This document shows, one piece after another, positions 3,628 to 33,369 of a stretch of DNA of 41,474 bases. Position numbers and translations under genes: made by a program. The stretch is from Rhodobacteraceae bacterium REDSEA-S34_B6 (lineage in GTDB: Bacteria > Pseudomonadota > Alphaproteobacteria > Rhodobacterales > Rhodobacteraceae). Numbering within the stretch: the stretch's first letter is position 1; each line of letters begins with the position of its first letter. The notes under the pieces are model-generated. The model was given only the letters and a program-made list of their open reading frames with translations, searched no databases and was not told the DNA's origin. The DNA lies in contig LUQC01000048.1 in the NCBI GenBank assembly GCA_001627925.1, positions 1 to 41,474 of the forward strand, in the 5' to 3' direction.

Positions 3628-3693
3628 ACAGTTAAGCAAATAGCAAATTATCTAAATCAAATAAACGCCTAAGTTTTCTGGCGTTAGTTTGCG

Positions 3694-12662: not shown

Positions 12663-14291
12663 TTACAAGTCTTTCCATAAAACTTTACCAGCTGATCCAC
12701 GTGGCAAATTCGTTCGGATTTCAAGACTTTTGGGGACTTTGTAATGAGCCATATTCTTTCCACACCACTCAATAAATGAATCTTTTGATAGCTTTTTTTC
12801 CTTGTCATTGAGAACTACTACCGCTCTTACCCTTTCTCCGGTGCGCGGGTCGGAATCTCCAACGACGCAGGCTTCCAAAATGGCGGGATGTGAATGAAGG
12901 ATTGCTTCAACCTCGGCCGGCCAGACTTTGAGTCCAGATACATTTATCATTCTTTTCAAACGATCGACAAAATAAAAATAACCATCTTCATCATAGTATC
13001 CTATATCACCAGTTCGAAAAAAATCTTTCCCATCTATATTTATAAATGCGTCTGCGGTGGCGTCTTCGTTTTGCCAATATCCAGCAAAAACCTGCGGTGC
13101 GTTTGCCACAATTTCACCGATCTGATTTGGCCCTAATTCCTCTAAGTGCTGGGGCTCTATGATACGAGTGTCAACATCAAAGATTGGAATTCCTAAGCAT
13201 TGCTTTCTGGGAGAGTTAATTGGATTAATATGTATGGGGGCCATTGTTTCAGTCAGGCCATATGCTTCAATGTAATCAAGCCCAATAAGTTTCTCCATTC
13301 TCTCAGCAACACTTTCTGGCATTTGTGCTCCTCCACCTCCAATAGCCTCAAGCGATGATAGGTCGTATTTTTCAATGTTCTCCAATGATAGAAAATCAAT
13401 CATTGTGGTTGTGATTGATCTCCAATGTTGAATTCTTTCTTTTTCTATAATTTCTGCCGCTACCTGAGGATTCCACCGCGCCATTAAATGAATTGTAGAC
13501 CCAGTTAGTATGGGTAAGTTCATTGAATGCTGCATTCCAGTGACATGGCACAGCGGTAATGTTGCTAACACTTGGGAGCCATTTTTCACTCCTACCCAAA
13601 GTGGATATGCATGTATCGTAGCATTTGCACTCTTATGAGTATGTAGACAGCCCTTAGGCTGCCCAGTTGTTCCTGAACTATACGGAATAATACACCAATC
13701 TTCAGGTTTTCGATTATGATTAGGGGCTGAGAAATTCATTTCTAGAGCGTTACTCCAGGTTGGGCAGGGTGGGTTGGTTCCTTTAGCCTTCACGCTCGTA
13801 GGTATATCAATATTAGCGTTTTCTCCAATATAATCTGAGTATGTTACAGCGAGTAATTGGCGTTCTTTGATATTGAGGTTGGCACTTTCAATTTCGTTGT
13901 AGAGTTCCTGTCCAAAAACGATTGCTTTGGATTGAGAGTCTTGAAATATATGTGCCAATTCGGCACTTTTGCACATTGGGTTAACCGGTACAACTACGGC
14001 ATTCGCGGCTAAAATAGCATAATAAGCAATTATAAATTGGGGTGTATTTTGCATATACAATGCAACCCGGTCGTTTTGTCGAACATTTGCAAAAGCAGAG
14101 AGATATCCTGCGATCAACTTAACTTCTTTATACAGGTCGGAGTATGTCAGTCCTTTGCCATAAAATTTTATTGCAATTGAAGAGGGAGAATTCTTTGAAG
14201 AACTGGTAAGGTTTTCATAAACAGAACTTGCTACTGGAGGTAAACTGTATGGTAAGTTCTGAGGCCAAACTCCATAATGTCTACTTTGCAT
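12663..14291 (-). CDS. AMP-dependent acyl-CoA ligase
   Basis: This is a 542-residue member of the ANL superfamily. It shows the P-loop PYSSGTTGQPKG (203-214), the central AYGLTETM motif, FFRTGDIGYYDEDGYFYFVD with the A8 hinge RLKRMINVSGLKVWPAEVE, and the catalytic Lys near the end (PRGSAGKVLWKDL). The overall style is that of medium-chain or aryl/alkanoate-CoA ligases rather than the classical DmdB, which begins differently. It would make a CoA thioester of a carboxylic acid with ATP. It is third in a compact operon after the DmdA/GcvT-like and VOC genes (20-base gap). That order suggests the demethylated acid is activated here. The exact acid is unknown. Confidence 0.9.
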   Translation of the reverse strand: MQSRHYGVWPQNLPYSLPPVASSVYENLTSSSKNSPSSIAIKFYGKGLTYSDLYKEVKLIAGYLSAFANVRQNDRVALYMQNTPQFIIAYYAILAANAVVVPVNPMCKSAELAHIFQDSQSKAIVFGQELYNEIESANLNIKERQLLAVTYSDYIGENANIDIPTSVKAKGTNPPCPTWSNALEMNFSAPNHNRKPEDWCIIPYSSGTTGQPKGCLHTHKSANATIHAYPLWVGVKNGSQVLATLPLCHVTGMQHSMNLPILTGSTIHLMARWNPQVAAEIIEKERIQHWRSITTTMIDFLSLENIEKYDLSSLEAIGGGGAQMPESVAERMEKLIGLDYIEAYGLTETMAPIHINPINSPRKQCLGIPIFDVDTRIIEPQHLEELGPNQIGEIVANAPQVFAGYWQNEDATADAFINIDGKDFFRTGDIGYYDEDGYFYFVDRLKRMINVSGLKVWPAEVEAILHSHPAILEACVVGDSDPRTGERVRAVVVLNDKEKKLSKDSFIEWCGKNMAHYKVPKSLEIRTNLPRGSAGKVLWKDL

Positions 14292-14837: not shown

Positions 14838-16016
14838 TTATATTTTAGAATTATTTAAAAGTGCCCGTGCATCTCCAGTTTGCAATTTTGGAAGAAATGG
14901 CAGATTAGAAACATAGATTGGCTTTTCACCCTCCCAAGTAAAAACACTTAATTCAGTTCCAACTGTTGAATATTCATTTCGCACGAGACCTAACGCAATA
15001 TTTTTTTCTAATCGCGGGGAGTAAGATAGGCTCGTAAGCCTGCCTATTTTCTCCCCTTTGTATAATAAATCCCAAGGTGTCTCATTCGCCTCAATCGGAG
15101 GACCTTCAAGTATAAGTCCAACCAAAGTTTTTTCTAGTGGCTGCTTCCTTATTTTTTCAAGTTCAGATCGACCAATAAATGTATTGTCATTTTCAAGCTC
15201 TACAAGTCGTCCAAGACCAACTTCATATGGGTTTTCGTCTACTCCCATATCTACCCCCCAGGAAAGGATGCCACTTTCTATTCTTCGGGTTTGATTTACA
15301 GCTCCTGGAGCTGCGCCGTAGGGTTTACCGATGTCTATTAATGCATCAAATAAAGCATCACCTTGTTCATAATTTTCCAAGTACAACTCGTAGCCGAATT
15401 CACCGCTCCAACCGGTCCGTGAGATTCTTAGATCAGTACCTTGAAAATTTACTGTGCGATGCCAATAATATCTTAAATCTAAAACTTCTTCACCAAACAT
15501 ATCACAAATTACGTTAGGCGATTTAGGCCCCTGAATTTGAACAACAGAAACATTTGCATCAGATATTTTAATATCTTTAAAAGGAGCATGAACCGCGACC
15601 CCCTTAGCCCAAAGCTCAAGATCACAATCAGATGTAGATAGCCAAAAGCGATCATTTGACAATTTTAAGATGATGGGATCGCAAACTATTCCGCCTGACT
15701 CGTCACTAATTAGCGCATACTTACATTGGTTAACTGAACAGGTAGACATATCTCTCGACGTTAATAACTGAACAAATTCAGCAGCATCGCTACCGGAAAT
15801 CTCCACTTGACGCTCACCCATTACTGGCCAAATTGCTACATTTTTTGTGACGTTCCAATATTCTTCAGTCGGATTGGAGAAAGTACTCGAAATATAAGTT
15901 CTATTGTATACTGAAAATTTTCTGCATCCATGTCTCCAGGCCGCATCAAAAAATGCACCCTTTCGGATACGAGGCTGGATCGCAATTGTAGCACCTTTAT
16001 GCGGCTTATTTACCAT
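14838..16016 (-). CDS. GcvT-family tetrahydrofolate-dependent demethylase, DmdA-like
   Basis: The protein has 392 residues with a T-protein (GcvT) N-terminal domain and a C-terminal barrel. Signals include ERQVEISGSDAAEFV (about 68-82), GGIVCDPIILKLS (108-120) where DmdA has xNDPxxxK and glycine-cleavage T-protein has DD, IQGPKSPNV, and RTGWSGEFGYELYLE, which is nearer to GcvT than to the DmdA SKQGGFE. RRIESGILSWGVDM and NPYEVGLGRL also fit. So it is DmdA-like but not a clear DMSP demethylase. Such enzymes pass a methyl group from S, N or O to tetrahydrofolate. The ATG at 16016 is preferred over a TTG 12 bases upstream. It heads a tight operon with VOC and acyl-CoA ligase genes, suggesting breakdown of a methylated carboxylic acid. 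Confidence 0.85.
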   Translation of the reverse strand: MVNKPHKGATIAIQPRIRKGAFFDAAWRHGCRKFSVYNRTYISSTFSNPTEEYWNVTKNVAIWPVMGERQVEISGSDAAEFVQLLTSRDMSTCSVNQCKYALISDESGGIVCDPIILKLSNDRFWLSTSDCDLELWAKGVAVHAPFKDIKISDANVSVVQIQGPKSPNVICDMFGEEVLDLRYYWHRTVNFQGTDLRISRTGWSGEFGYELYLENYEQGDALFDALIDIGKPYGAAPGAVNQTRRIESGILSWGVDMGVDENPYEVGLGRLVELENDNTFIGRSELEKIRKQPLEKTLVGLILEGPPIEANETPWDLLYKGEKIGRLTSLSYSPRLEKNIALGLVRNEYSTVGTELSVFTWEGEKPIYVSNLPFLPKLQTGDARALLNNSKI

Positions 16017-16226
16017 AATTCTATCCAATACAATATCCGACTTTAGTTGAAGCTACACGGTAAAACCCTAATATAAATCGCGAAAGTGAAAAGAACTTTT
16101 TATTTATGATTTTTGGCAGTATTAATTCGCGTTTATCCCTTAACATTGATGCTAAAATTTTTGTTATATGATTTGTTTATAAGAAAAAATATATTAAAAA
16201 CAGATAGAAACGATGGAATTGTTAAA

Positions 16227-25709: not shown

Positions 25710-26381
25710 TCACATTATTGTAAGAGCCCCATCTATAAGAGAGACTCTTTTTATTAACCCATTGTTGTTTAATCTAGTAGCCGACTGAATATAAAAACGA
25801 TCCTCAAGCTTATTGAATTTATCGTTGCTTAAAACCGTTATTTTATTTCTATCTGCATACTTAATTAATAACCCATCCGCCTTGTGGCCTTTTTTTGAAA
25901 CGGTAACATTGTGGCGACTTCTGTTTAATACTCTACAAATCGTCATGGGAACAGTTTCTCCATCGAGTATTAAGTTTTGCTCCCGCAACAACCGAATAAT
26001 GCTGTGATCAAAAAATAGGTGAGTTTTAAATCCATCTTGCTCTAATTCATTGATAAAATTTACAAAAATATCTAAGTCCCAATTAGCAGTGCCAATTAAA
26101 TTATTTGCGTCTAAAACCAGATCAAATTCATCTTTATTTACGCGGGATTCAGTAAGCTTTAGACCTTTTTTTATTCTCAGGTACCCAGCAATTAGCAAAC
26201 TCGCAGTAAATCCATAAATCACGAGCGTTACTATACTTTCTCTATCAAAGATATATAGATATAGCAAAGCCAATGCTAACGAAATCCAAAGAATAAGACC
26301 GCGAAAGTATAGCCCTATAAAAAGAATGATTAGTGCTACCAGCATTGGTATATCGCTCGTCGAGCTAGGATCAACACCCAT
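25710..26381 (-). CDS. Membrane-anchored NYN/Zc3h12a-type ribonuclease
   Basis: The protein has 223 residues in two parts. Residues about 12-70 hold two to three membrane helices (MLVALIILFIGLYFRGLILW, then VTLVIYGFTASLLIAGYL). From about 85 follows a soluble PIN-like domain: DLVLDANNLIG with the catalytic Asp, FFDHSIIRLL, KADGLLIKYADRN and VLSNDKF with further acidic residues. This matches the Zc3h12a-like NYN RNase group (Pfam RNase_Zc3h12a). Such domains cleave RNA with metal ions in a four-acid site. The membrane tether would place the nuclease on the cytoplasmic face. It is convergent with the M20 gene (15 bases) and has no operon partner. The domain call is by motif only; RNA targets are unknown. 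Confidence 0.75.
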   Translation of the reverse strand: MGVDPSSTSDIPMLVALIILFIGLYFRGLILWISLALALLYLYIFDRESIVTLVIYGFTASLLIAGYLRIKKGLKLTESRVNKDEFDLVLDANNLIGTANWDLDIFVNFINELEQDGFKTHLFFDHSIIRLLREQNLILDGETVPMTICRVLNRSRHNVTVSKKGHKADGLLIKYADRNKITVLSNDKFNKLEDRFYIQSATRLNNNGLIKRVSLIDGALTIM

Positions 26382-26495: not shown

Positions 26496-27725
26496 TTAAT
26501 TTTTATTGTAAGTCGGACTTGCAACAACGCCCTTATCAAACAAATTTGATATCTCAATATCAGATAGATGCAATATATCTCCCAATATTTCTTCAGTATG
26601 TTCACCAAGGGCAGGAGCTCCTTTTGCTTCAGTATTATCTACTTTCGAAAAATTAGCTGGATGCCTCGGAACTAAAAACTCACCAGCTTCGGGCTGCTTT
26701 ATTTTTTTAAAGAGGGGATTGTCCTCACTCAAATCTGGATCAAATTCCAGAGCTTCTTTTACCGAGCGAAAAACCGACCAAGTGAGGCCCGTATTATCAA
26801 AATCGCGAGCAAAGTCTTCCACCGCTCTGGTTTTAAACCATGGTTCTAATATTGCTGTAATTTCATGACGCCACTTCCACCTAATAGCTTCATGATTTAG
26901 ATTGATATTTTTTTCGTTTTCCAAATTCTTAAATTGCTCTGTGGTATCAGTCGCTTTTAAAATTCCTGACCATTGTCTGCTTGTTAAACCAATTATCATC
27001 ACTCTATTACCATCTGCGCATAAAAAATCCTTACCATAAGCTCCATAAAGAGCATTACCAGCTTTTGACCTGTCATCAGAATTTAAAGTTGAATCAGCGA
27101 TCATTCCGAGGTGGCCAATAGCCGCTGCCGCGACATCTTTCAAAGCTATCTCAACATCTTGACCAACCCCATGTCTTAACCGATAGCGTTCAGCAGCTAG
27201 TAAAGATGAAACACACATATTACCTGCAATCATATCCCAGGCTGGGATTGCATTCGCCACTGGTTCAGTGCTTCCCTCATGACCCGTAATCTCAGGGATC
27301 CCTAATGCTGGATTAACTGTGTAATCAACTTGTGGTCTTCCTTGCCTATCGCCCTTTAAAGTGACAATTATTATGTCGCTTCTCAATTCAGATAAAGTTT
27401 CATAATCCAACCAGCCTTTAACCTTTAAATTAGTTAAAAATAGGCCAGCGTCTTTCCCAGGAGCGGTAATTAAGTTAGTGATTAAATCCTTTCCCTCCGG
27501 GTTTTTCATGTCGACTGCAATAGATTTCTTACCCTTATTCATACCAGACCAAAATAAACTACTACCACTTGGCGAGTACGGCATGCGTCGAGCATCGAGA
27601 CCTCCTTCGAGCCTGTCAAACCGTATAACCTCCGCACCCATTTGCGAAAGTGTCATACCGGCCATCGGTACTGCGACAAAAGCAGAGCTTTCGATCACCC
27701 GCAAACCAGATAGGATATTATTCAC
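26496..27725 (-). CDS. mct: Mesaconyl-CoA C1-C4 CoA transferase (2-methylfumaryl-CoA isomerase)
   Basis: This is a family III (CaiB/BaiF) CoA transferase of 409 residues from a GTG at 27725. That start has GGGAGGA at good spacing and overlaps the meh stop, so I prefer it to a longer frame reaching 27815. Matches to remembered Chloroflexus Mct include LRVIESSAFVAVPMAGMTLS, LFWSGMNKGKKSIAVD, DYTVNPALGIPEITG and the likely catalytic Asp164 in PAWDMIAG. The length and the last 60 residues also agree. Mct moves CoA within mesaconyl-CoA from C1 to C4 without releasing acid, a step of the 3-hydroxypropionate bicycle. The hydratase gene meh directly precedes it. Another CaiB-type transferase is possible, but the similarity is strong across the length. 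Confidence 0.85.
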   Translation of the reverse strand: MNNILSGLRVIESSAFVAVPMAGMTLSQMGAEVIRFDRLEGGLDARRMPYSPSGSSLFWSGMNKGKKSIAVDMKNPEGKDLITNLITAPGKDAGLFLTNLKVKGWLDYETLSELRSDIIIVTLKGDRQGRPQVDYTVNPALGIPEITGHEGSTEPVANAIPAWDMIAGNMCVSSLLAAERYRLRHGVGQDVEIALKDVAAAAIGHLGMIADSTLNSDDRSKAGNALYGAYGKDFLCADGNRVMIIGLTSRQWSGILKATDTTEQFKNLENEKNINLNHEAIRWKWRHEITAILEPWFKTRAVEDFARDFDNTGLTWSVFRSVKEALEFDPDLSEDNPLFKKIKQPEAGEFLVPRHPANFSKVDNTEAKGAPALGEHTEEILGDILHLSDIEISNLFDKGVVASPTYNKN

Positions 27726-28566
27726 TGTCTTCCTCCCATAAGGCTGTTGCCTCCATACACTGGTGGTCATCAGCCGCTGTATACAAACTAAGACCACTTT
27801 TATTTGCCTTCGCAACTAGTTCCATTGAATTATTCGCAAATGCTGGGTGTACCCCTCGAAATGAAAACTTACTTGGGGCAGAATTCTTTAAACTAGTTGC
27901 GTATTGCATTAGAAATAGTGCCTGTAGAGGCCCATGCACAATTAAATGAGGATATTTTTCAACTTCTTGAGCATATTTTAAATCATAGTGAATTCTATGA
28001 GCATTATATGTTAATGCTGAAAATCTGAAGAGAAGTGGGTTTGATATGGAAATATTTTCTTTTGGGTAATCAGGTTGGGGAAGTTCTCTTTTTTTGGGGG
28101 GATTGAATGAATCAGAAGCTTCCAAATAAACAATATTTTGTGTTTCTGTTATTGCTAAATTATTGAAAGTTTTCAACTTGTGTTCATAAGAAATAAACAC
28201 CATTTCGCCTGATTGAGATTTCTTTTCTTTAATATCAACGAGTGTTGTTTCTTTTATTATCTCTTCTCCAATTTTTAAATCAGAGTGAAAATTTAATGAG
28301 CCACTTGCCCACATTCGGCGTGTCAAATTTTTTGGTGGAATATATCCAACGTGCTTTGGGTGGCCATCTTCTCCCAGTTGACTTAAGTGTGTGGGAGAGG
28401 GAAATGCAAACCAATGCCATAAAGCCGGTAGTGCACCATGTTCTTTCAGCTGCCCATCAGATTCCTTTCCAACAGTTGAATTTATAAGCTCAGCAGTTAT
28501 TAAATCAATTTTGCCTGACGTAGTGTTTGTAGTTCCTATCCAAGCCGCGATGTCCGAATTCCCCAA
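27718..28566 (-). CDS. meh: Mesaconyl-C4-CoA hydratase (HTD2-like double hotdog)
   Basis: The protein has 282 residues of the HTD2-like MaoC hydratase type. The signature is FSALTYNAHRIHYDLKYA (about 185-202), followed by HLIVHGPLQALFLMQYA; the N-terminal half has the FPSPTHLSQLGEDGH and GYIPPKNLTRRMWASGSL motifs of this family. The start is a TTG at 28566: an in-frame TAA lies just upstream, and GGAG sits 7 bases before. Meh hydrates mesaconyl-C4-CoA to (S)-citramalyl-CoA in the 3-hydroxypropionate bicycle. The overlapping mct gene downstream supports this over a generic enoyl-CoA hydratase. The final lyase to pyruvate and acetyl-CoA is not in this window. Confidence 0.83.
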   Translation of the reverse strand: MGNSDIAAWIGTTNTTSGKIDLITAELINSTVGKESDGQLKEHGALPALWHWFAFPSPTHLSQLGEDGHPKHVGYIPPKNLTRRMWASGSLNFHSDLKIGEEIIKETTLVDIKEKKSQSGEMVFISYEHKLKTFNNLAITETQNIVYLEASDSFNPPKKRELPQPDYPKENISISNPLLFRFSALTYNAHRIHYDLKYAQEVEKYPHLIVHGPLQALFLMQYATSLKNSAPSKFSFRGVHPAFANNSMELVAKANKSGLSLYTAADDHQCMEATALWEEDSE

Positions 28567-28689
28567 TTATTTGCTCCATTATTTTAAGCATACAAAAACC
28601 CAATTAAATTATACTGCGAGTTTATCAAGCCAGAATTAAGATGAATTGCTTTAAATAAAAAAATAACGTTGATTTAATTTAAGCGATTA

Positions 28690-29772: not shown

Positions 29773-30636
29773 ATGCAGTATCACACGCCATCAAGCTTTA
29801 GTGAGGCGGTAACTATTTCGAATTCAGCTGATGGACTAGTTAAATACCTAGCAGGCGGTACAGATGTCCTTGTGCAGCTGAAAATTGGTAATAATTCTCC
29901 AGACCATTTAATTGATATCAAAAAAATACCTGGTGTAAAAGAAATTGCATTGCGTGAAGACGGAGGATGGACAATAGGCGCAGCAGTTTCTGGCGTACAA
30001 CTTACTAATCATAAAAAGTTATCAAGGGAGTGGCCTGGTTTAGTAGAAGGAATGGAGCTTGTAGGTTCTGCCCAGATCCAAAGCAGAGCTACGTTGGTAG
30101 GTAACTTGTGCAATGGTTCTCCTGCGGCCGATAGCGTTCCGGGTATGATAGCTGCTGGAGCAACTGTCTCAGTCGTAAGTTCTTCTGGCACAACGGAAGT
30201 TCTAGTTGAGGATATACCGGTTGGCCCGGGCTTAACAAATCTTGGAACTGGAGAAATAATAACGGCTGTTAATCTCCCTAAGCGAAACAAGCATGAAGGA
30301 GATGCGTATCTAAGATTCATACCAAGAACTGAGATGGATATAGCTGTAGTGGGTTGCGCAGTTAACCTATCTTTAGAAAATGAAGTAATTAGGTCTGCAA
30401 AGGTTGTTTTGGGCGCCGTAGGCCCGAAAGTTGAAGTAGCCACTCCTGCTGCAGAATGCCTGCTTGGTGAAAATTTAGACGAAAATATATTATCCATATT
30501 TTCTGATAAATGCAGTGAACTTGCAAAGCCAATATCGGATAAAAGGGGCTCGGAGGAGTTTCGAAAAGAGGTAATCGGAGTTATCGCAAAACGCGCTGCA
30601 AAAAAAGCTTACGACAGAGCGCTAGGAAATAAATAA
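29773..30636 (+). CDS. Molybdenum hydroxylase FAD subunit (CoxM-like)
   Basis: The protein has 287 residues of the FAD-binding domain of xanthine-oxidase family enzymes. FAD-contact motifs are AGGTDVLVQLKIG (about 29-41) and TLVGNLCNGSPAADSVPG (about 110-127), and the C-terminal CO_deh_flav_C part covers about 175-285. It is the first of three subunit genes in the order M-S-L, with a one-base gap before the Fe-S subunit gene. It carries electrons from the 2Fe-2S clusters to an acceptor, probably quinone or ferredoxin. The ATG follows GGATAGG. The substrate cannot be read here: the large subunit lacks the CO dehydrogenase signature. Confidence 0.9.
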   Translation: MQYHTPSSFSEAVTISNSADGLVKYLAGGTDVLVQLKIGNNSPDHLIDIKKIPGVKEIALREDGGWTIGAAVSGVQLTNHKKLSREWPGLVEGMELVGSAQIQSRATLVGNLCNGSPAADSVPGMIAAGATVSVVSSSGTTEVLVEDIPVGPGLTNLGTGEIITAVNLPKRNKHEGDAYLRFIPRTEMDIAVVGCAVNLSLENEVIRSAKVVLGAVGPKVEVATPAAECLLGENLDENILSIFSDKCSELAKPISDKRGSEEFRKEVIGVIAKRAAKKAYDRALGNK

Positions 30637-30637
30637 T

Positions 30638-31117
30638 ATGAATAAAATTCACGTGAAGACAAATATAAATGGTGATCAAGTGGAATTTCTGGCTGATTCC
30701 AGAGAAACTTTACTGGACTGCCTGCGGGATCATGTTGGATTAACCGGTTCAAAAGAAGGATGTGGAACTGGTGATTGTGGAGCCTGTTCCTGTATTTTTG
30801 ACGGTGAGCTCGTTAGCTCTTGTTTGGTCCTTGGTGTGGAAGCTGAGGGTAAATCGATAGAGACTATAGAGGGTATGGCTGGACAGGAAGACCTTCACCC
30901 GCTTCAGAAAAAATTTATTGAGATGGCCGCACTACAATGTGGCTTTTGCACGCCTGGCATATTAGTAGCTGCAAAAGCTCTACTTGAGAAAAATAACAAT
31001 CCAACGGAAACCGAAGTTAGATATTGGCTGGCCGGTAATTTATGCCGTTGTACTGGATACGATAAAATAATTAAGGCTGTTATGGAAACGGCGAAAGACA
31101 TTCGGGAGACAGCTTAA
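30638..31117 (+). CDS. Molybdenum hydroxylase 2Fe-2S subunit (CoxS-like)
   Basis: The protein has 159 residues with two 2Fe-2S domains. The plant-type cluster is in CGTGDCGACSCIFDG with a later Cys in VSSC (about 44-68). The second, all-helical cluster is in ALQCGFCTPGI and NLCRCTGYDKI (about 104-147). These are the eight expected Cys positions of small subunits in the CO dehydrogenase, aldehyde oxidase and 4-hydroxybenzoyl-CoA reductase group. Its stop overlaps the ATG of the large subunit by one base, so the subunits are made together. It passes electrons from the molybdenum centre to FAD. The start ATG is well placed, one base after the preceding stop. Confidence 0.93.
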   Translation: MNKIHVKTNINGDQVEFLADSRETLLDCLRDHVGLTGSKEGCGTGDCGACSCIFDGELVSSCLVLGVEAEGKSIETIEGMAGQEDLHPLQKKFIEMAALQCGFCTPGILVAAKALLEKNNNPTETEVRYWLAGNLCRCTGYDKIIKAVMETAKDIRETA

Positions 31118-33369
31118 TGGCTAAAGACGATATCACGAAAAGTTTTAAATTTATTGGAACCCGACCTAATCGTCCCGACGGGTTTGAAAAGGTCACCGGT
31201 AGAGCAAAATACGGTGCAGACATTTCAGCAGTCGGTATGCTTCACGGAGCAGTACTTCGATCACCATATGCCCATGCCAGAATAAAGAGCATTAATTTTG
31301 AAAAAGCTGCAAAACTTGATGGCGTAAAAGCTATTATTACACGAGATGACTTTCCAAAAGACAGGGAGGGAGAACCTCTAAAACTTTTAGAAAATACAAT
31401 CGCAGGAGAGATTGCTTATTATGATGGGCACGCAATAGCAGCAGTCGCTGCGACATCAGTATTTACAGCAAAGGAAGCCCTAAAAGAGATAGAGGTAGAA
31501 TACGAAGTTTTACCGCATGTAATAGATGTGGATGAAGCTATGAAACCCGATGCTCCAATAGTTCGCAAAAATGCTGGAGATTTTTCCGTACCAGAGGGAA
31601 GCTCTCCGAATGTAGCAAGCTACATTGAGTTTGGCCGAGGAGATATAACTAACGGGTTTGATAAGGCAGATATCGTCAAGTCAGGTCTGTTCAAAACAGA
31701 AGCAGCCCACCAGGGTTATATTGAGCCACATGCTTGTATGGCTCAGTTAGACCACAACGGGCAGGGGGAGATGTGGGTTTGTACTCAGGGTCACTGGTAT
31801 ATTCGCCAGATGTGCTCAGAAGTACTGGATCTCGAGGCTAGTAAATTATGCGTAACTCCGTCTGAAATAGGTGGTGGATTTGGCGGGAAAACAACGATCT
31901 TTATTGAGCCATTAGCTTTAGCATTGAGTAAGAAATCTGGTGGGCGTCCTGTAAAAATAGTTATGAGCCGTTCTGAGGTTTTGCGTGCGACTGGACCAAC
32001 TGCGTCGGCATCAATGGATGTGAAAATAGGTATGACAAAAGATGGATATTTAACTGCAGGTTGTGTTGAGTTCAGAATGCAGGGCGGTGCTTTCGGCGGT
32101 TCGCCAGTAAGTGAGGCGCTTCAATGTGCATTTGCATCTTACAACATGGAAGCAGTACATCATATTGGTTTTGATGTCTTAGCCAATCGGCCAAGGGCCG
32201 CTGCCTACCGTGCCCCAGGATCACCGATGGCGGCGTTTGCAGTTGAAAGTTTAATAGATGAAATGTGTACGGACTTAGACCTCGACCCAATTGATGTCAG
32301 ATTAATGAATGCTGTAGCTGAAGGTAGCAAGTCAAGTTATGGGCCAAAGTTTAAAAAGATTGGTTTGATTGAAACACTAGAGGCTACTAAAGAGCACCCG
32401 AATTATTCTATCGAACTGGGGGCTAATCAAGGTAGGGGTGTCGCTGCTGGATATTGGATGAACCATGGAGGAGAGACCTCTGTTTCCGTTTCTTTAGCTG
32501 AGGATGGTAGCGTCAATGTCTCTGTGGGTACTCCAGATATAGGTGGGAGCAGGGCATCAATAGCTCTAATGACGGCAGAAACTTATGGAATTCCGTATGA
32601 TAGTGTTCGGGTAAATATATTAGAGACTGGTGCTCTTGGGTTTAATGAGCCAACTCATGGAAGTAGGGCTACGCTTGCTTCTGGTAAGGCTGTTTACGAA
32701 GCAGCTAATCAAACAATTGCTGAAATGTGCAGGCGTGTAGCAAAAAAGTGGCAAATTGATCCAGACGCTGTTTATTGGGAAAACGGATATGCGAAACCAG
32801 CAGGACCGAATGCGGGAGATTTTACACCTATTTCAATAAAACAAATCGCTTCCGAAATGGATCAAACCGGGGGACCAATAGCAGGGCATCATGAATCATC
32901 AATTCGCGGGGTTGGTCACAGCTTTGGTGTTCATATTGCTGACGTTGAAGTTGATCCTGAAACCGGAAGAGTTACTGTGCTAAGATATCTTGTGGCGCAG
33001 GATGCTGGACGGGCAGTGCACCCGTCGTATGTAGAAGGTCAATTTCAAGGTGGCGCTGTTCAGGGAATAGGGTGGGCACTGAATGAAGAGTATGTATACG
33101 GGGAGGATGGGTGCCTACAGAATGCAGCCTTTCTTGATTACAGAATACCTGTTGCTAGTGATTTACCTAATATTGATACAATTATCGTTGAAGTCCCCAA
33201 TCCGGATCATCCATTTGGAGTGCGTGGTGTTGGTGAGACCGGCATCGCTCCACCATTGCCAGCACTTGCGAATGCTGTAGCAGCAGCAACTAAAGTAAGG
33301 TTACGATCATTACCGATGTCTCCAACAAAAGTATTGAAAGCCTTAAAGACTGGTAATGATGGCTGTTAA
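31117..33369 (+). CDS. Molybdopterin-binding large subunit of a xanthine-oxidase-family hydroxylase
   Basis: The protein has 750 residues. The N-terminal Ald_Xan_dh_C domain starts RPDGFEKVTGRAKYGADIS. The Mo-binding parts include EIGGGFGGKTTIFIEPLALA and AAYRAPGSPMAAFAVESLI. The catalytic Glu is in GVRGVGETGIAPPLPALANA near the C terminus. The CO dehydrogenase signature AYxCSFR is absent, so CO oxidation by a form I enzyme is unlikely; aldehydes, purines, N-heterocycles or a CoA-thioester substrate are possible. With the FAD and Fe-S subunits it forms a cytoplasmic three-part enzyme. Its 3' end overlaps a MoaD-like gene by 14 bases, suggesting a dedicated sulfur carrier for cofactor supply. 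No maturation (CoxF/XdhC-like) gene is present here. Confidence 0.9.
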   Translation: MAKDDITKSFKFIGTRPNRPDGFEKVTGRAKYGADISAVGMLHGAVLRSPYAHARIKSINFEKAAKLDGVKAIITRDDFPKDREGEPLKLLENTIAGEIAYYDGHAIAAVAATSVFTAKEALKEIEVEYEVLPHVIDVDEAMKPDAPIVRKNAGDFSVPEGSSPNVASYIEFGRGDITNGFDKADIVKSGLFKTEAAHQGYIEPHACMAQLDHNGQGEMWVCTQGHWYIRQMCSEVLDLEASKLCVTPSEIGGGFGGKTTIFIEPLALALSKKSGGRPVKIVMSRSEVLRATGPTASASMDVKIGMTKDGYLTAGCVEFRMQGGAFGGSPVSEALQCAFASYNMEAVHHIGFDVLANRPRAAAYRAPGSPMAAFAVESLIDEMCTDLDLDPIDVRLMNAVAEGSKSSYGPKFKKIGLIETLEATKEHPNYSIELGANQGRGVAAGYWMNHGGETSVSVSLAEDGSVNVSVGTPDIGGSRASIALMTAETYGIPYDSVRVNILETGALGFNEPTHGSRATLASGKAVYEAANQTIAEMCRRVAKKWQIDPDAVYWENGYAKPAGPNAGDFTPISIKQIASEMDQTGGPIAGHHESSIRGVGHSFGVHIADVEVDPETGRVTVLRYLVAQDAGRAVHPSYVEGQFQGGAVQGIGWALNEEYVYGEDGCLQNAAFLDYRIPVASDLPNIDTIIVEVPNPDHPFGVRGVGETGIAPPLPALANAVAAATKVRLRSLPMSPTKVLKALKTGNDGC

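Follow-up and report, generated by a model that had tools for sequence, protein, structure and literature searches.

Known routes through mesaconyl-CoA

Mesaconyl-CoA is handled by several described systems. In the ethylmalonyl-CoA pathway, the product of (2S)-methylsuccinyl-CoA dehydrogenase (Mcd) is described as the C1 ester (PMC12290011). The pathway serves in the assimilation of acetate and ends in glyoxylate and propionyl-CoA. The second cycle of the 3-hydroxypropionate bicycle of Chloroflexus, like the partial bicycles of Kentron and Accumulibacter, exits through citramalyl-CoA by way of the CoA-transferase Mct and the hydratase Meh. The itaconate/methylsuccinate degradation cluster of Pseudomonas and Cupriavidus also hydrates mesaconyl-C4-CoA and cleaves citramalyl-CoA; its dehydrogenase is reported to use the C4 ester, so that no Mct is needed (PMC12290011). 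Here we report on an mct-meh gene pair of Rhodobacteraceae bacterium REDSEA-S34_B6, carried on contig LUQC01000048.1 of a draft assembly (G000; 2.41 Mb in 111 contigs). The window analyzed is this one entire contig (C55, 41474 b).

Judged from its genes, and with moderate confidence, the G000 route would be neither the standard ethylmalonyl-CoA pathway nor the 3-hydroxypropionate bicycle. Like the former, G000 encodes Ccr (crotonyl-CoA carboxylase/reductase), a mutase resembling Ecm (ethylmalonyl-CoA mutase), and Mcd, and its sdh, ecm, and ccr genes are arranged as in relatives; unlike it, G000 lacks Mch (mesaconyl-C1-CoA hydratase), which normally converts mesaconyl-C1-CoA to beta-methylmalyl-CoA, and the predicted end is acetyl-CoA and pyruvate rather than glyoxylate and propionyl-CoA. 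Homologues of Mct and Meh and the predicted citramalyl-CoA exit are shared with the full and partial bicycles, but again there is no Mch, and mesaconyl-C1-CoA would come from Ccr, Ecm, and Mcd. The itaconate/methylsuccinate cluster is similar in the predicted hydration and cleavage steps and in that Meh is homologous to itaconyl-CoA hydratase, while the C1-type Mcd of G000, unlike the dehydrogenase of that cluster, requires a C1-to-C4 step.

The reading that we favor, with a probability of roughly 0.6, is that Meh and Mct make up the last part of an ethylmalonyl-CoA pathway that has been rerouted to end in pyruvate. Two acetyl-CoA would be converted to crotonyl-CoA, which Ccr would carboxylate, and Ecm and Mcd would then give mesaconyl-C1-CoA. 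An intramolecular CoA move by Mct would produce mesaconyl-C4-CoA, Meh would convert this to (S)-citramalyl-CoA, and a CitE-type lyase, with candidates on contigs 15 and 72, would release acetyl-CoA and pyruvate, for a net conversion of acetyl-CoA, CO2, and reductant to pyruvate. The genes and absences are read at the sequence level, and from them we infer which reactions are catalyzed, which way the flux runs, and which lyase takes part. Without Mch no beta-methylmalyl-CoA can be made by the known enzyme, and Mct and Meh are the only outlet identified. An initial annotation of the window had proposed that the pair diverts mesaconyl-C1-CoA to pyruvate and acetyl-CoA. These products are supported, but the route looks like the main exit rather than a diversion, because the competing enzyme Mch is absent and is missing from its conserved place.

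The meh-mct pair

The mct product matched the 2-methylfumaryl-CoA isomerase model TIGR04253 over its full length with 473 bits, missing the cut-off of 725, which was reached by none of the 244 genomes of the same order and none of the 14 control genomes that made up our comparison set. Its matches among solved structures were 7xkg and 8apq (E 9e-137 and 1e-134), and it was 50.7% identical to the Mct of Chloroflexus and 51.6% identical to that of Roseiflexus, both of which have been solved. The active site of Chloroflexus Mct is described as the nucleophile Asp165 together with Arg47, Tyr136, and Leu43 (PMC9813914); the equivalents of all four residues (L43, R47, Y136, D165) were kept in the alignment with the window Mct. 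In a tree of 53 rows, the window Mct fell within a set of 41 Rhodobacteraceae-type sequences (support 100/100), which joined the two solved Mct and two plasmid homologues at 98/96, with an unsettled internal branching order. Two other CaiB proteins of G000 fell far from it. A grouping with unrelated CaiB proteins, which the initial annotation had considered, was thus not what the tree gave; the transferase sits with characterized Mct. Of eight Mct loci in named assemblies, the distant L130 and L131 (23–25%) were not used and the partial L129 was kept outside the tree. The nearest Mct sequences in named assemblies were from Rhodobacteraceae: MED-G08 (96%) and AG-457-F15, AG-390-B07, and AH-326-E22 (88%), all of which we take to be marine and some to be single-cell genomes. 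The source bacterium is probably a marine one with a small genome.

Meh contains a FAS1-type dehydratase region (PF13452) and aligned with the itaconyl-CoA hydratase structures 8khg and 8huc (E about 1e-47), with HRIHYD and HGPL stretches in common; none of the NCBIfam models matched it. Itaconyl-CoA hydratases of this type are reported to hydrate mesaconyl-C4-CoA as well (PMC12290011), and Meh is predicted to be mesaconyl-C4-CoA hydratase-like. The initial annotation had placed the two genes in an overlap, and both the coordinates (Table 1) and the overlap were confirmed in the sequence: mct starts with a GTG at 27725, and the TAA stop of meh occupies 27718–27720. The GGGAGGA stretch likely serves as the ribosome-binding site of mct. 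The listed start of meh, a TTG (window 28560–28600, minus strand), is uncertain; an in-frame GTG or ATG lies upstream of meh in L124–L126, and a one-base difference at this spot in the window and in MED-G08 leaves the TTG as the listed start. Purifying selection acts on both genes, with dN/dS of 0.04–0.12 for mct and 0.08–0.11 for meh in comparisons with three relatives, two of them at a dS above 1.

At a threshold of E <= 1e-60 to TIGR04253, Mct was found in 36 of the 244 genomes, and in all 36 meh lies immediately upstream on the same strand, so that the pair is not a product of chance. By automated estimate, 34 of these loci have the meh stop no more than 8 bases from where the mct alignment begins, and the other two have it 25 and 40 bases away. 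No Meh adjoined the two distant Mct paralogues of G151 and G021 (about 38%). The gene order of the window around the pair is kept in five related assemblies (L124, L125, L126, L128, and L129), indicating that the pair is resident in the lineage and not a binning artifact; in a sixth, more distant assembly, L127 (64%), the match is limited to the pair. As had been annotated, the pair stands apart from mcl, mch, and a propionyl-CoA synthase gene in the window, which held no match to PF03328, PF19315, or the Mch alignment described below. Propionyl-CoA synthase is a protein of about 1800 amino acids, and its absence from the window was judged by length, no listed open reading frame (ORF) there exceeding 750 amino acids.

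Mct-like matches also occurred in 24 plasmid records, six of which were read. On a Paraburkholderia plasmid (L147, 2293–6538) an acyl-CoA dehydrogenase gene overlaps an Mct-like gene that perhaps has another intramolecular CoA-transferase function; no Meh was found in this stretch. On a Sphingomonas paeninsulae plasmid (L150, 4001–7661) an Mct-like gene precedes genes for an acyl-CoA dehydrogenase and for a protein resembling Meh (39%), so that an mct-dehydrogenase-meh module may exist beyond Rhodobacteraceae.

A predicted ethylmalonyl-CoA pathway without Mch

The genes of G000 point to a source of mesaconyl-C1-CoA, and this source appears to be the ethylmalonyl-CoA pathway, as had been suggested initially. 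Ccr scored 615 bits, above the cut-off of 378.55. Divergent to ccr and beside it lies the gene for a B12 mutase of 655 amino acids, 74–81% identical to the protein in the same place in 11 relatives and labeled Ecm from its position and length. A second mutase on the ccr contig is separate from the Ecm-like one and follows propionyl-CoA carboxylase genes. Mcd, on contig 18, scored 802 bits against 6ES9, with the next structure at 281; 6ES9 is described as the Paracoccus Mcd of the ethylmalonyl-CoA pathway (PMC5798300). Two other candidates for Mcd were rejected: the ORF after ccr (L016:12021-13523) encodes a helicase-like protein, and the gene between ecm and ccr in relatives is, by inspection, acyltransferase-like. 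The assembly gave no match to isocitrate lyase. PEP carboxykinase is encoded in the same window as the pair and may help to link the pyruvate/PEP and C4 pools.

Mch was sought with an alignment of 16 proteins from relatives (17 were extracted and L107 was left out), one of which matches 8hgn, a beta-methylmalyl-CoA dehydratase, at 5e-125 and 4e3e, a MaoC dehydratase, at 3e-130. This search was positive in 229 of the 244 genomes at E <= 1e-140. Of the remaining 15, eleven gave no match and four gave weak ones (8.0e-4 to 7.6e-8); the G000 assembly yielded no candidate. Pfam PF19315 alone was misleading as a detector, being silent in G045, G049, G053, and G065 despite their strong Mch; it found nothing at E <= 1e-40 in the 244 genomes and 14 controls, and 196 of the 244 at E <= 1e-3. 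Thirteen of the 15 Mch-less genomes also lack Ccr. Put differently, 231 genomes have Ccr and 229 of these have Mch, and the two exceptions, G000 and G156, both carry Meh-Mct. G156 is 99% complete and encodes Mcd (895 bits) along with Ccr. The Mct proteins of G000 and G156 are not sisters and occupy distant parts of the tree, and the sequences closest to the latter (from G155 and G171) belong to genomes that keep Mch; separate losses of mch are therefore indicated. Co-occurrence of Mct with Ccr was uninformative by itself, Ccr being found in 36 of 36 Mct genomes and in 195 of 208 others (p 0.23).

The place from which mch is missing is well conserved. Among the shared genes, 11 of 11 relatives have the order NnrU-type, DUF1737, mch, sdhC, sdhD, sdhA, sdhB, nucleoside phosphorylase, ecm, ccr, with further genes intervening at some points. 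These relatives had been picked because mch was listed near ccr, which favors conserved order, and G053, G065, and G192 were added as a check. Across the 14, mch directly follows DUF1737 in every case and sdhC is next among the shared genes in 13; G053 and G065 keep DUF1737-mch-sdh. G000 has the same genes in the same order minus mch, with DUF1737 ending at C17:3561 and sdhC starting at 3643. This 81-base gap lies within a 64 kb contig with no contig break, and incompleteness is therefore an unlikely explanation for the missing gene.

More tentatively, with confidence just short of an even chance, we propose that pelagic Rhodobacteraceae with small genomes have deleted Mch, the canonical exit, and rely on Mct-Meh and a citramalyl-CoA lyase as an oxygen-tolerant anaplerotic entry from C2 compounds (acetyl-CoA + CO2 to pyruvate), with the loss having occurred at least twice among carriers of Meh-Mct.

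Candidates for the lyase step

The lyase is the least certain step of the proposed route. Contig 15 encodes a malyl-CoA lyase homologue (477 bits to 5ugr) together with a malate-CoA ligase beta subunit that scored over its cut-off. Because the malyl-CoA lyase of R. sphaeroides is reported to form citramalyl-CoA reversibly (PMC3832036), the contig 15 homologue is possibly sufficient and may, by analogy, act as the citramalyl-CoA lyase. A RipC-like protein on contig 72 (259 bits, cut-off 375) is another candidate, with a contaminant origin possible. In relatives, G045 and G049 have a CitE-type lyase gene directly 3' of mct, and a gene of the malyl-CoA lyase family lies near the pair in 12 of the 36 genomes. 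Of the genes bearing on the route as first annotated, the assembly holds ccr, the Ecm-like and second mutases, and the malyl-CoA lyase homologue, but not mch, and for the citramalyl-CoA lyase it offers candidates only.

The stretch around the RipC-like lyase gene (L018, G000:C72:14000-27096) also carries an S/N-oxide reductase-like gene, SelD and SelB-type genes, and a piece matching glycine/sarcosine/betaine reductase selenoprotein B; it possibly encodes a selenoprotein, or belongs to a contaminant contig. Its GC content is 0.432; that of contig 17 is 0.41–0.42 and that of the window 0.385.

Alternative explanations

Several observations weigh against a rerouting. The combination of Ccr with no Mch was seen in two genomes, including the one from which the analysis started (Fisher p 0.024 with it and 0.15 without it). 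In G192 the DUF1737-mch block occupies a chromosomal region distant from sdh, ecm, and ccr, showing that the block can move. The G000 assembly is 95.5% complete, with 3.1% contamination, and some chance remains that the junction was misassembled or that mch was relocated to a region that the assembly does not cover. Neither lyase candidate of G000 nor the G045 lyase reaches the citramalyl-CoA lyase cut-off, and G045 and G049, with their lyase gene after mct, themselves keep Mch. Finally, the window Mct scores under the curated TIGR04253 cut-off, and plasmid homologues from Paraburkholderia and Variovorax resemble Chloroflexus Mct more closely (58–60%, versus 51% for the window Mct). These homologues adjoin acyl-CoA dehydrogenases and keep the same four residues, so that these residues do not prove the substrate.

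Some of these points would suit a genome in which Mch was not truly lost, the gene having moved to the missing 4.5% or fallen to an assembly error at the junction, or an unrelated dehydratase having taken its place, with Mct-Meh as a side branch. The draft state of the 111 contigs, the retention of Mch by 34 of the 36 Meh-Mct genomes, and the distant mch block of G192 all agree with this. We nevertheless consider it unlikely, since a single 64 kb contig carries the intact flanks, with DUF1737 and sdhC separated by 81 bases, since mch adjoins DUF1737 in all 14 relatives, even in G192, and since the nearly complete G156, with Ccr and Mcd, also lacks Mch.

About equally improbable for G000 is the second half of the 3-hydroxypropionate bicycle, in which malyl-CoA lyase would form beta-methylmalyl-CoA from glyoxylate and propionyl-CoA, Mch would give mesaconyl-C1-CoA, and Mct, Meh, and a lyase would lead to pyruvate and acetyl-CoA. 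A similar partial bicycle has been proposed for Kentron (PMC6593406). In 11 of the 36 pair genomes, all of which keep Mch, the genes for both malate-CoA ligase subunits lie in one cluster with the pair; 10 of these loci include a malyl-CoA lyase gene, 10 a class-V aminotransferase, and 10 a divergent ScfR-family regulator. Names for the cluster genes were taken from one locus, L072, scanned with family libraries, in which the aminotransferase resembles BhcA and the regulator resembles RamB, both under cut-offs; RamB of Paracoccus is reported to bind intermediates of the ethylmalonyl-CoA pathway (PMC10370305). By analogy, the ligase-meh-mct cluster of these relatives looks like the second half of the bicycle, and there the pair may serve the glyoxylate and propionyl-CoA route instead. 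This explanation fits the ligase-clustered relatives but not the window, as the known route from glyoxylate and propionyl-CoA to mesaconyl-C1-CoA is blocked in G000 without Mch.

Degradation of external C5 dicarboxylates (mesaconate, methylsuccinate, or itaconate) after CoA activation is less likely still. The resemblance of Meh to itaconyl-CoA hydratase, a type that is said also to hydrate mesaconyl-C4-CoA (PMC12290011), is consistent with such a role, as are the two other CaiB transferases and the RipC-like lyase of G000 and an EamA permease of unassigned substrate upstream of meh. However, no gene for C5-acid activation was recognized among the neighbor families common to at least three loci, and the Mcd present is of the C1 type of the ethylmalonyl-CoA pathway. 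Least likely of all, and barely credible, is that the intramolecular CoA transfer by the Mct-like protein takes place on some other dicarboxylic acyl-CoA, yielding the substrate of the hydratase: an intramolecular CoA-transferase is known from naphthalene breakdown (PMC11659651), the TIGR04253 cut-off was missed, and homologues closer to Chloroflexus Mct sit beside acyl-CoA dehydrogenases without Meh, but the constant presence of Meh beside it in all 36 genomes and the nearby malyl-CoA lyase family gene in 12 of 36 fit mesaconyl-CoA chemistry.

Implications of the proposed rerouting

If the rerouting to pyruvate is correct, it would represent a natural end-group swap in central carbon metabolism, with the same carboxylation chemistry ending in pyruvate and not in glyoxylate and propionyl-CoA. 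Pyruvate synthase (pyruvate:ferredoxin oxidoreductase, working reductively) converts acetyl-CoA and CO2 to pyruvate, the same net conversion as proposed for G000. The likeness is one of analogy only, the enzymes being unrelated and the proposed route having no low-potential ferredoxin step; aerobic cells would thereby gain the net pyruvate synthase reaction without ferredoxin. Genomes of this kind would otherwise be taken to encode an ethylmalonyl-CoA pathway that is incomplete. The pair could also provide a ready-made module for synthetic carbon fixation; the linking of a synthetic CO2-fixation cycle to citramalyl-CoA and pyruvate has been raised as a design option (PMC12290011). In the open-access literature consulted, we found no ethylmalonyl-CoA pathway with Mch replaced by Mct-Meh, although one may have been published elsewhere.

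Other features of the window

The immediate neighbors of the pair keep their positions in the related assemblies, five of them in the case of the 223-amino-acid protein, which had no match in Pfam or NCBIfam. Considered as pathway partners, neither this protein downstream nor the EamA permease upstream suggests a function.

Table 1. Positions of the meh-mct pair and of other features in the window.
Feature	Positions	Strand	Basis
mct (Mct-like CoA-transferase)	26496-27725	-	TIGR04253, PDB 7xkg/8apq, kept residues, tree
meh (mesaconyl-C4-CoA hydratase-like, 282 amino acids)	27718-28566	-	PF13452, 8khg/8huc, pairing with mct
mct/meh overlap, 8 bases GTGAATAA	27718-27725	-	sequence read directly
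GGGAGGA, candidate ribosome-binding site of mct, within 3' end of meh	27731-27737	-	sequence read
223-amino-acid protein, directly downstream of mct	25710-26381	-	
three-gene set	29773-33369	+	
GCV_T-type protein	14838-16028	-	324 bits, cut-off 410
acyl-CoA ligase, near GCV_T-type protein	12663-14291	-	

The large subunit of the three-gene set belongs to the xanthine dehydrogenase/CO dehydrogenase superfamily; it reached no NCBIfam cut-off among the models shown. The GCV_T-type protein resembles dimethylsulfoniopropionate (DMSP) demethylase, and with the acyl-CoA ligase it may form a DMSP demethylation cluster.

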